DNA from: Cyanobium sp.
GTDB taxonomy: Bacteria > Cyanobacteriota > Cyanobacteriia > PCC-6307 > Cyanobiaceae
Length of the DNA stretch: 39,621 bases
Direction of reading: 5' to 3'
Assembly (NCBI GenBank): GCA_007135755.1
Contig: SLIG01000121.1
Span: forward strand, 1 to 39,621
Positions 22,157 to 25,939 of this stretch are shown piece after piece (the stretch's first letter is position 1; each line of letters opens with the position of its first letter). Position numbers and translations under genes: made by a program. Below the pieces are notes generated by a model. It was not told the origin of the DNA. It was given only the letters and a program-made list of their open reading frames with translations, and searched no databases.

Positions 22157-24001
22157 TCAGGCCGGTGGACTGGCGGGCTGGGGCGCCTGTGCTGGTGCGG
22201 CCACCGGAGTGGAGGGGGGGATCTGCTCCAGCACCAGCAGGGCATCGATGATCTGGCGGGCCACGGGCGCGGCCACCGTGGAGCCGAACGTGTTGCCGCC
22301 CTGGGGTTCATCCACCACCACCAGCACCACGAAGCGCGGGTCTTCGATCGGCAGCACCGCCACGAAGCTGGTGATCAGGGCCCCGGGGATGTACACGCCA
22401 CGCTCAGCCTTCTGGGCGGTGCCCGTCTTGCCGCCGATGCGGTAGCCGGGCACTTTCACGCCCAGGCTTTCGCTGCGGGCCACGGTCTGCTCCATCCACT
22501 CCAGCACCGTGGCCGTCACCTGCGGATCGAGCAGCTGGAGACCGGAATGGCCGGTGCTGCTGGCCAGGGCCTCGCCGGAGCGCAGGCCGCGGGTGATGTG
22601 GGGGCTCACCAGCCGGCCACCATTGGCCAGCATCGCGTGAAGCTGGGCCAGCTTCAGGGGGGTGAGGGAGAAGCCCTGGCCGAAGGCCGCCACAGCCGGC
22701 TCGATCGCGTGACCGGTGAACACCCCGCGCGGTTTCAGCTCCCCGGCCACTGCACCGGGCAGGTCGGTGTCGGGCCGCGTATCGATGCCGATCTTGTTCA
22801 GCCACTCCCAGAAGCGCTCCCGCTTCACCTGGGCCATGGCATTCACCATGCCCACGTTGCTGGACACCTCCAGCACGGTGGCGAAATCGATCACGCCATT
22901 GCCCTGGCGATTGGCGTTGAAGATCGGCCAGCCACCGATGCTCAGCTGCCCTGGGTCGTTCACCGTGCCCTTGGGGTCGATCGCCTTCTCCTGCAGGGCG
23001 ATCGCCAGGTTGATGGGCTTGAAGGTGGACCCGGGTTCGTAGAGATCCTGCACCGACCATTCGCGGAACAGCCCGGGATTGAATTTCCAGAACTGGTTGG
23101 GGTCGTAGGTGGGATAGGAGGTGAGGGCCAGCATCTCGCCGTTGCGCACATCCATCACCAGGGCGGCGCCGCGCTTGGCCTTCCATTTCGCCACCTGACT
23201 GGCCAGGGCCTGCTGACTCACCTGCTGCAGGCGCGCGTCGAGGGTGAGCTGCAGGCGCAGATCATCGCCATAGAGCGAGCCCGCCGTGAGCCCCTCCGGC
23301 AGGGGGGTGCCATCGGCCCCCCGACGCATGCTGAGGGTGTTCTCCAGGCGCTGGAGGTCGCTGTCGCGGCTCTGCTCCAGCCCCGCCTGGGGCACCCGCT
23401 CGAGGTTGAGGAAGCCCACCACGTTGGCGAACAGCGAGCCCTGGGGGTAGACGCGTTGGGGATAGCCCTCCAGGTCGAGGCCGCTGATGCCCAGCCGGCG
23501 GATGCGCTCGGCGGTCTCCGGGTCGATGTCGGTGCCCAGCTTCACGCCACTGGGGCGGCCCACCATGCGCTCGTGCAGCAGCGCAGCCGGCTGGGCCAGC
23601 ACCGGCCCCAGCCGGGAGGCCACCTCCTCCCGGCTGCGCAGCTTCTGGGGGTCGTCACCGGGAAAGTTGAAGAAGCGGGGGTGGGCCCAGAGGGTGAACC
23701 GCTCCTCGTCGAGGGCCACCAGGCGGCCGTTGCGATCGACGATCGTGCGGCGCTTGCCCAGGGGGGTCTGGGACTGGGTCTGAAGGGCCCGGGCCTTGGC
23801 CTCCAGGTTGGCGGTGTCGAACACCTGCAGCCAGGCCAGGCGGCCGGCCAGACCCGCCAGGCCGAGGCAGAGCAGGCCATAGACGGCCAGCAGCCGTCCG
23901 GGGCTGAGGGGCTGAATCGACACCACCCGCCTCTGGCGGCTGGATCCCGCTGGGCGCGTTGTCGGAGGACGTCGGGAGCGTGGAAGCGACGTGGGGGTCA
24001 T
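22157..24001 (-). CDS. ftsI: Penicillin-binding protein, FtsI/PBP3-type transpeptidase
   Basis: 614-residue class B PBP that cross-links septal peptidoglycan. A short basic cytoplasmic N-terminus is followed by one transmembrane helix (about 35-56), the PBP dimerisation/pedestal domain ([20 protein letters not shown] and after), and the transpeptidase domain with the three active-site motifs: SxxK in EPGSTFKP (about residue 325), SxN in VSSNVGM and KTG in GGKTGTAQ (about residue 524). The frame is open upstream to 24481, but ATG 24001 gives a normal FtsI N-terminus. It lies 23 bases downstream of a small TM/coiled-coil gene that may encode the FtsL partner. Confidence 0.95.
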
Positions 24002-24024
24002 GGATCCCGCCAGGGGGGGGCGAC

Positions 24025-24468
24025 TCAGTAGCCGATGGCGGCCGGTTTCCAGTCCAGGGACGCCAGGGGCAGGCCGGAGGTGGATTGGGACGGCGCCGAC
24101 GGTGGCGGCATGAAGATCAACCGGTCGCTGCTGGTGGGCACCAACTGGCCGGGCTGGCCTGCGCGGCTGAGGTGGTGGCGCTCCAGCTGGGCGGCCGATT
24201 CCTGCAGCCGGTGTTCGAGCACCTGGGCGGATTCCAGGGCCTGAAAGCTCTGCCCCCACTCGTTCTGCCAGTGCAGGGTGAGACCGCTCAGGGCCAGCAT
24301 GCAGAGACCGAGGCCGGCCAGGGTGCCGTCGGTGGCCCGGTGCAGACCCATCAGCCAGGGAGTCCGTCGACCGGCGGCACGGCCGGTGAGCGAACCCTGG
24401 ATCAGCTGCAGGGGCCGCTGCGGCTGGAGGCTGTCGGCGGCCGGCCCAGCGAATTTGGAGGCGACCAC
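24025..24468 (-). CDS. Candidate FtsL-like single-pass membrane protein
   Basis: 147 residues: basic N-terminal part (LTGRAAGRRTPWLMGLHR), one transmembrane helix at about 49-66 (TLAGLGLCMLALSGLTLHW), then an amphipathic, likely coiled-coil stretch at about 70-98 (SFQALESAQVLEHRLQESAA) and a Pro/Ser-rich tail. This type II, TM-plus-coiled-coil architecture directly upstream of ftsI on the same strand matches the mraW-ftsL-ftsI gene order of many bacteria. Sequence similarity to FtsL is weak by nature, so the name is inferred. GTG 24468 is the only standard start after the stop of the CPBP gene at 24536; longer frames overlap that gene. Confidence 0.65.
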   Translation of the reverse strand: MVASKFAGPAADSLQPQRPLQLIQGSLTGRAAGRRTPWLMGLHRATDGTLAGLGLCMLALSGLTLHWQNEWGQSFQALESAQVLEHRLQESAAQLERHHLSRAGQPGQLVPTSSDRLIFMPPPSAPSQSTSGLPLASLDWKPAAIGY

Positions 24469-24535: not shown

Positions 24536-25939
24536 TCACACCGCCAGCAGCACCAGGTTGGTGAAGGTGAACCCGTTCCAGAGCCCATGCATGAGCACAC
24601 AGGGCCCCAGCCGTCCGCTGCGTAGCCGCAACCAGCCCAGTCCGGCCCCCAGCACCACCAGGGGCAGCAGTTCGCCCAGGCTGAGGTGGGCCAGGCCGAA
24701 CACCAGGGCGCTCACCAGCACGCCTGCCGTGTCACCCCAGCGCTGTCCCAGCGCCGGCAGCAGCACCCCCCGGAACAGCGTTTCCTCGAACAGGGGTGCC
24801 AGCACCATGGCCGTGACCCCGAAGCACAGCAGGGCCGCCGGGTTGCGGGCGGTGAGCACCAGGTCCAGCAGCGGGTTGCTGCCGCCGGGATCGCCCAGCA
24901 GGCGCTGCACCAGCCAGCCGGCGAAGGTCACCAGGGGCAGCACCATCAGTAGCTGGCCCAGGGCGGCGCGGATGGCCGAGCCGGCGGGCCGCCAGCGCCA
25001 CTGCAACCAGCCGTTGGCCGGTTCCCGGCCAGCCAGGGACCGCAGCTGGGCCGCCAGGATCAGCAGGGGCGGCACCATCAAGCCCAGGTAGAGCAGCAGC
25101 ACCTGCAGGCCCTGCTGCAGCGCCGGCGTGGCGTCGAAGGGTGCGAGCAGCGGCCTCAGGGCCGGGGCCAGCAGCAGCGGCACGCTCAGTTCCCCCAGCA
25201 CCACGAAGCCACCGGCGATCAGCAGGGTCACGTCCACCAGGTCCAGGGGCGGCCCCACCAGTGCCGGGGATGCCGGGTTGCGGCGGCGGATCCGCAGCCA
25301 GAGCTGCCGCAGCAGCAGACCCACGCCAAGCAGGAGCAGCAGCGCGGGCAGCCAGCTCACCGCCAGCAGCTGCGCCAGGGCACGCCCCTGCCGTCGCGGC
25401 TCGCCGCAGTCGGCTCGACCGGGCTCAAGGGCCTGGCAGAGCAGCTGGCTGGTCAGGGGGCTGAGATCGTCCTGCCAGGGGGCCGTGAGGGCGGCGGCCC
25501 GCTCACGCTCCACGGTCAGGGGGTCTGGGCTGCTCTTGAGCAGGGCCACGAGCTCCTGCCGCTCGGGGGGCACCTGGGCGCGCAGGCGCTCCAGCAGGCC
25601 AGCGCCGGCTTCGGCCCTCTCGCCGCGACGCTGCAGCAGGGCCAGTTGCAGCAGCTGGTCGGCAGTGCCCGGACCGGGACCGGCGGCCAGGGACTCCTCC
25701 AGGGCGACGGTGAGCTGCTCGAAGACATCAGGCCCGGCGAGCAGGGGTTTCAGCCGCTCCGGCAGGGCTGGAGCGGCCAGCACCTGGAGCTGCCGCTGGC
25801 GCAGCTCCAGGGCGTTGCCCACCGAAGGGCGATCCAGGCTCTGGAGCAGGCCGTTGATCCAGAGCAGGCTGCACAGCAGCAGGCTGACGCCGGCGAGCAG
25901 GAGCTTCCAGCGCGGCGGCGCTGTGGAGGAGGGGGCCAA
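24536..25939 (-). CDS. CPBP-family intramembrane glutamic endopeptidase
   Basis: 467-residue multi-pass membrane protein. The C-terminal CPBP (Rce1/CAAX-protease-like) domain carries the signature residues: EExxxR in PLFEETLFRGVLLPAL, FxxxH in VFGLAHLSLGE and HxxxN in LMHGLWNGFTF. The N-terminal half has a TM helix (about 12-33), a soluble, Leu/Arg-rich segment of some 150 residues and several more hydrophobic helices. Bacterial members are putative proteases acting on membrane proteins; the substrate is unknown. The start is TTG 25939, the only plausible initiator before the first helix. It is divergent from the histidine phosphatase gene across about 57 bases. Confidence 0.85.
   Translation of the reverse strand: MAPSSTAPPRWKLLLAGVSLLLCSLLWINGLLQSLDRPSVGNALELRQRQLQVLAAPALPERLKPLLAGPDVFEQLTVALEESLAAGPGPGTADQLLQLALLQRRGERAEAGAGLLERLRAQVPPERQELVALLKSSPDPLTVERERAAALTAPWQDDLSPLTSQLLCQALEPGRADCGEPRRQGRALAQLLAVSWLPALLLLLGVGLLLRQLWLRIRRRNPASPALVGPPLDLVDVTLLIAGGFVVLGELSVPLLLAPALRPLLAPFDATPALQQGLQVLLLYLGLMVPPLLILAAQLRSLAGREPANGWLQWRWRPAGSAIRAALGQLLMVLPLVTFAGWLVQRLLGDPGGSNPLLDLVLTARNPAALLCFGVTAMVLAPLFEETLFRGVLLPALGQRWGDTAGVLVSALVFGLAHLSLGELLPLVVLGAGLGWLRLRSGRLGPCVLMHGLWNGFTFTNLVLLAV

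Follow-up and report, generated by a model that had tools for sequence, protein, structure and literature searches.

How the septal peptidoglycan synthase FtsW-FtsI is activated in cyanobacteria has been left open by the statement that these organisms lack FtsL and FtsB, which is made in a review that also lists FtsQ for them and gives Synpcc7942_0482 as the ftsI of Synechococcus elongatus PCC 7942 (PMC7766704); a second paper reports that FtsL and FtsB were not detected in cyanobacteria (PMC4748335). The question is raised by a small gene next to ftsI in Cyanobium sp., on contig SLIG01000121.1 of assembly GCA_007135755.1 (39,621 nucleotides, hereafter called the window), for which a preliminary description, made from the letters alone, had proposed the identity of a picocyanobacterial FtsL. 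A search of titles and abstract openings in the open literature (preprints and most subscription papers lie outside it) found none that names this family as FtsL.

The preliminary description gave the right coordinates and length (24025-24468, 147 residues) and left the strand, which is the minus strand, unstated. The gene lies directly upstream of ftsI and on the same strand, as is characteristic of ftsL, the 23 bases claimed for the gap agreeing with a stop codon that ends at 24025 and an ftsI ATG at 24001 (Table 1), and the neighbour is indeed ftsI, the downstream protein carrying a PBP transpeptidase domain (1.5e-63). Compared with two Cyanobium relatives, the gene has 11, 4 and 19 substitutions at first, second and third codon positions in one case and 19, 8 and 42 in the other; this excess at third positions, together with the matches across genus and family described below, indicates that it is more than a chance open reading frame. 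Immediately upstream of it, at 24536-25939 of the window on the minus strand, is an ORF that presumably codes for a CAAX/CPBP-type membrane protease, judging from a motif of this group, and a similar ORF precedes the FtsL-like gene in loci L048, L050-L056 and L059.

Table 1. Features of the FtsL-like gene and its surroundings in the window, and two ORFs of other genomes discussed in the text
Feature	Position	Strand	Remarks
FtsL-like gene P0002	24025..24468	minus	GTG start, TGA stop, 147 codons + stop (147 aa)
Predicted transmembrane segment, residues 48-66	24271..24327	minus	from hydrophobicity; inside the AlphaFold2 helix
Helix continuation, residues 67-103, coiled-coil-like	24160..24270	minus	helix in the AlphaFold2 model; the coil itself is a prediction
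Conserved post-helix segment QLVPTSSDRLIFMPPP, residues 108-123	24100..24147	minus	aligned with the sister-class post-coil LGM..p..Yi..p
C-terminal Gly-Tyr of the FtsL-like protein	24028..24033	minus	last Tyr invariant among the class sequences collected
Interval from the FtsL-like stop to the ftsI ATG (24001)	24002..24024	minus	23 bases
ftsI, P0003, 614 aa	22157..24001	minus	Pfam Transpeptidase 1.5e-63, PBP_dimer 1.6e-7
Coiled-coil lipoprotein-like ORFs	L198:4803-5237, L199:4596-5030	plus	match to the A1 profile, apparently by chance

The protein has the basic N-terminus attributed to it, with six Lys or Arg residues against one Asp or Glu in its N-terminal third (residues 1-44). The single transmembrane helix also finds agreement, because the most hydrophobic 19-mer (residues 48-66, with a modest mean Kyte-Doolittle value of 1.45) falls within the only helix, residues 37-103, of an AlphaFold2 model built from 13 rows (the window protein and 12 relatives), in which both ends are disordered and the block means of pLDDT over residues 51-90 are 91-95. 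In this model the same helix runs on through residues 67-103, the stretch described as coiled-coil-like, and the family consensus LYGxTVxxQxxWxxxYxxLExLQ starts within the membrane helix. This is the layout of FtsL, a small bitopic protein in which a basic N-terminus and a transmembrane helix are followed by a coil, the membrane orientation and the coiled coil being predicted here. A search of PDB sequences with the family profile listed two chains, at E 1.3 and 2.1, which are taken as chance matches to coils.

Used as a query, the single FtsL-like sequence matches 12 of the 13 genomes of the genus, its own included, at E <= 1.2e-41; the match in the thirteenth (G002, E 0.003) has a stop inside and is unconvincing. 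In the bacterial family, 213 of 251 genomes match at E <= 0.01, a few of them weakly, and weak second matches of the same sequence in G000 and G009 fall in frames of 701 aa. In other cyanobacteria the region preceding ftsI encodes proteins with the same layout and a common motif, and 14 such sequences served as the seed that was grown across the class to the 83 rows of alignment A1, rows at least 80% identical to one already kept being dropped. The A1 profile has a convincing match in each of 117 class genomes, one per genome, the weakest best E being 1.7e-17, and gives four additional weak matches over the same sample; genus g18, with four genomes in it, is matched throughout by the profile and missed by the single sequence. 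A draw of 146 genomes from the phylum, which overlaps the former sample, contains 65 genomes of the class, and 63 of them have a convincing match. The two others are G389 (0.06) and G452 (none); a profile search of the sequence preceding ftsI in both genomes was negative, and in G389 this sequence is truncated by a contig end. A locus of the picocyanobacterial type, with the FtsL-like gene and ftsI, is also carried by a record titled as a Bifidobacterium breve MAG (L024, CALPNT020000013.1), which for this reason looks mislabelled or contaminated.

The association with ftsI is close in the relatives of this organism and looser across the class. The preliminary description had taken absence of the gene beside ftsI in close relatives as evidence against its proposal; the two genes adjoin in all 12 relatives' loci and, within the class sample, in each of the 11 genomes that belong to the same family. 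In 14 of 22 loci (L016-L027 and L048-L057) the stop codon of the FtsL-like gene abuts or overlaps the first ATG of ftsI. Over the 117 genomes, the FtsL-like gene is upstream of ftsI and on the same strand in 88, with no more than 672 bases between the aligned parts, and it is not beside ftsI in 29, one of which (G307) has no ftsI match. This separation is real and not an artefact, since at least five of the genomes concerned consist of a single contig (G253, G254, G297, G301 and G319). None of 41 cyanobacterial ftsI loci contains rsmH within the flanks read, which span 1.5-5 kb.

The other classes of the phylum supply the gene order not seen at these cyanobacterial loci. In E. coli the order seen is rsmH-ftsL-ftsI, and outside family f43 the corresponding order rsmH-X-ftsI was found in all 17 testable loci of these classes (14 of 14 in families f42, f44, f46, f47 and f48, and three of three in f50), X being a protein that shares the layout of the cyanobacterial FtsL-like protein. 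The first two cases came from matches of the A1 profile (6e-8 and 1.2e-4), and the others from searches with the FtsI of these two. The presence of rsmH was established with Pfam MraW at 12 loci (L196, L197 and ten others) and with tblastn at L259 and L266; at the three f50 loci it was found by tblastn and ftsI was placed by the FtsI search. L256, being the same locus as L196, was counted once, G365 has no ftsI match, and two loci were left out of the 17: L269, where the contig begins in ftsI, and L262, where it begins inside the gene, leaving a partial match (E 0.001) that ends in GF. The f50 proteins, which match at E 0.07 or worse, are recognised by their place and not by sequence. In family f43, which has many genomes, no X precedes ftsI in any of the ten loci fetched (L285-L292, L296 and L298; L297, with 416 bases, was excluded), and in L285 and L286 the ORF preceding ftsI looks by eye like rpsO.

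The A1 profile also matched ORFs that were rejected as FtsL. Those of G359 and G369 (L198 and L199) resemble coiled-coil lipoproteins and adjoin a transaldolase-like gene; it was ftsI that led to the rsmH-X-ftsI loci of both genomes. Another coil ORF, which does not occupy the place of ftsL, accounts for a second match in G455 (7.6e-5). Because the ORFs of L198 and L199 score like some true members, single E-values of about 1e-5 to 1e-3 prove nothing here. According to their consensus lines, the 14 sister-class X proteins gathered in alignment A5 have in common with the cyanobacterial family an LYxxTV where the membrane helix ends and an aromatic last residue, and they differ from it in the adjacent rsmH, in an A..LGM element and in a better fit to FtsL models. 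Compared by hhalign, A1 (83 rows) and A5 are related with a probability of 94.4% and an E-value of 8.9e-8.

A membrane helix followed by a coil is a common design, and a membrane protein associated with FtsI could have acquired both the place and the layout by convergence, with no descent from FtsL; the coiled-coil false positives just described, given by the very same profile, and the fact that no curated FtsL model reaches its cut-off speak for this explanation. The comparison of trimmed A1 with A5 (95.3%, score 51.5) nevertheless stands far above 200 column shuffles carried out separately within tail, membrane, coil and end (mean 15.5, sd 2.9, maximum 25.1) and above reversed columns (16.7), and the sister-class proteins share both the LY-x-x-TV motif and the aromatic end, so that convergence is very improbable. 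The 28 picocyanobacterial rows taken alone give 26.8% against A5 (score 27.7, with 100 shuffles reaching 23.6), and the other 55 rows of A1 give 94.3% to A5 and 98.2% to the picocyanobacterial rows; the link between picocyanobacteria and the sister classes therefore runs through these 55 rows. When E. coli FtsL is the sole sequence compared, the cyanobacterial family gives no hhalign match (0.1%) and A5 hardly any (4.3%).

Among the 14 A5 proteins, the leading NCBIfam matches are FtsL_Actino (12 proteins, best 5.1e-7), ftsL_broad (6) and FtsL_COG5462 (5), all below cut-off, as seen from the bits for one member and implied by the E-values for the others. Over the 83 cyanobacterial rows, ftsL_broad (TIGR02209) matches seven (best 1.5e-4) and FtsL_Actino (NF053549) seven (0.001), and nine match, with a weaker best E, GspM, a similar membrane-coil protein. 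None of the 83 passes an NCBIfam FtsL model, the best E of 1.5e-4 probably lying far under the cut-off of 42.45 bits, and no FtsL model is among the matches listed for the window protein. Such a cut-off is set by a database and does not define FtsL biologically. Pfam FtsL (PF04999) is over its cut-off in none of the 117 class genomes; among 14 control genomes, archaea and B. subtilis included, it matches two and is over the cut-off in one. B. subtilis and other control organisms have a known FtsL, so the silence of PF04999 in cyanobacteria says little. Homology to FtsL is reached by a chain, from the cyanobacterial family to the sister-class proteins by profile comparison, and from these to FtsL models that match 12 of the 14 rows below cut-off.

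In Pfam the window protein matches PepSY_TM alone (E 5.3e-5), which might make it a partial PepSY-type membrane reductase. The score of 23.6 bits stays below the cut-off of 28.8, the model matches only 10 of the 83 family members even at E up to 10, and the match covers only the membrane helix and coil of a 147-residue protein that has no other domain; a PepSY identity was rejected on these grounds and has next to no chance of being correct.

A more serious competitor is the other half of the pair, since FtsL and FtsB/DivIC have the same architecture, and the FtsL-like protein could be the FtsB/DivIC member. For the 14 sister-class proteins Pfam does give DivIC in five (best 1.6e-4) against FtsL in two, and A5 matches a small set of FtsB-like sequences (A3, five rows) with 87.1%, a value that falls to 21.0% with the larger set of 35 rows (A6). 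The position of X, however, is that of ftsL in the order rsmH-X-ftsI, NCBIfam puts FtsL models first for the same proteins, and neither DivIC nor FtsL is among the 25 families listed, out of 60, for the 83 cyanobacterial rows; judged by these profiles, the FtsL-like family does not appear to belong to FtsB/DivIC (PF04977). Moreover, the same organisms have a distinct family that shows the layout of FtsB. Scans of the class with DivIC gave many weak matches, over the cut-off in none of the 117 genomes, from which this family was picked by eye as a seed of five rows (A3), later a set of 35 (A6). Its members have a membrane helix, a coil and a conserved ...QEQ...PNQRxVIW end, they are found in 112 of the 117 genomes at E <= 0.01 (weak matches included), DivIC matches 14 of the 35 rows, and the comparison with the FtsL-like family gives only 16-22% with the five rows and 1.0% with the 35. 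It is thus very unlikely that the FtsL-like protein is the FtsB/DivIC partner.

The FtsB-like sequences correspond to a family already named in NCBIfam, NF052344 ('slr1601 family putative cell division protein'), which all 35 rows match (best 2.2e-40); a literature search on slr1601 found no paper. The copy of the Cyanobium genome lies outside the window (G000:C159:10540-10911; L236:4035-4586, minus strand; E 1.8e-10) and scores 37.5 bits against the NCBIfam cut-off of 70. In this genome the gene stands beside one that by eye resembles por, as it does in all seven picocyanobacterial loci read. The slr1601 family is like the FtsL-like family in having a membrane helix and a coil and in occurring in the same genomes, and differs from it in being a separate family, as the 1.0% indicates, at a different locus; by analogy with other bacteria, it is the probable partner of the FtsL-like protein. 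Another protein, CyDiv (All2320 of Anabaena), resembles the FtsL-like protein in having been proposed as a late-divisome component where FtsL and FtsB had not been detected; it is proposed to be FtsB/DivIC-like, has its transmembrane segment near the C-terminus and the coil at the opposite end, which sets it apart, and is reported to be exclusive to filamentous species (PMC4748335).

With these alternatives weighed, the order rsmH-X-ftsI and the profile-profile homology in the sister classes identify the gene of the window as, very probably, the cyanobacterial orthologue of the division protein FtsL, diverged beyond the reach of curated models. Of the proposal of a picocyanobacterial FtsL, the identity is supported, by gene order and profile homology, and the restriction to picocyanobacteria does not, the family being class-wide (117 of 117 genomes). 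The cyanobacterial protein is like the FtsL of other bacteria (TIGR02209, NF053549, PF04999) in its place upstream of ftsI, its size, the helix leading into a coil and the segment after the coil, and has matches below threshold to TIGR02209 and NF053549; it is unlike them in staying below the cut-offs, in an LVPxxPxxxIFLxP that replaces the sister-class A..LGM, in having no rsmH within the flanks of the 41 ftsI loci read and in an invariant tyrosine. A plausible history is that the photosynthetic class kept ftsL-ftsI and lost the nearby rsmH, and that the protein drifted below the curated FtsL cut-offs.

This tyrosine is the last residue of the protein in all 83 rows of A1 and in all of 140 distinct cyanobacterial sequences (E < 1e-6), in which it is preceded by Gly in 123 and by Ala in 13. 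The 14-sequence seed was chosen partly by its ending in GY or AY, so the endings of the seed sequences are not independent; later members were found by profile. In the sister classes, the 14 rows of A5 end in GF, GY, AY or AW, that is, in Phe, Tyr or Trp, and the three f50 proteins in Phe. A variable tail with an obligatory aromatic end suggests, as a proposal, that the C-terminus docks into a partner, and to our knowledge such docking has not been described for other FtsL proteins. It can be put forward tentatively, with slightly less than an even chance, that cyanobacteria have a complete FtsQ-FtsB-FtsL module, with the slr1601 family as FtsB, in which the FtsL tail carries an aromatic-ended docking signal for some partner of the septal synthase.

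From what is generally known of FtsL, which is essential for division, the protein would be bitopic, with a basic cytoplasmic tail, a membrane helix continuing into the periplasm as a coiled coil, a short conserved segment after the coil and a flexible tail with Gly-Tyr at its end. Its helix would pair with that of an FtsB-like protein, for which the slr1601 family is the likeliest candidate; the two proteins, held by FtsQ, would rest against FtsI and switch on the FtsW-FtsI septal peptidoglycan synthase. A physical partnership with FtsI/FtsW is suggested by this analogy; an AlphaFold2 model of the FtsL-like protein and FtsI as one read-through chain (A2, 18 shallow rows) had a mean pLDDT of 30 and no readable interface, and speaks neither for nor against it. 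With a class-wide candidate beside ftsI and a matching FtsB-like candidate, the activation of FtsW-FtsI becomes directly testable in laboratory strains of cyanobacteria, and the invariant C-terminal Tyr offers a single residue open to test. The findings suggest that cyanobacteria do have the FtsQBL switch, in a diverged form.
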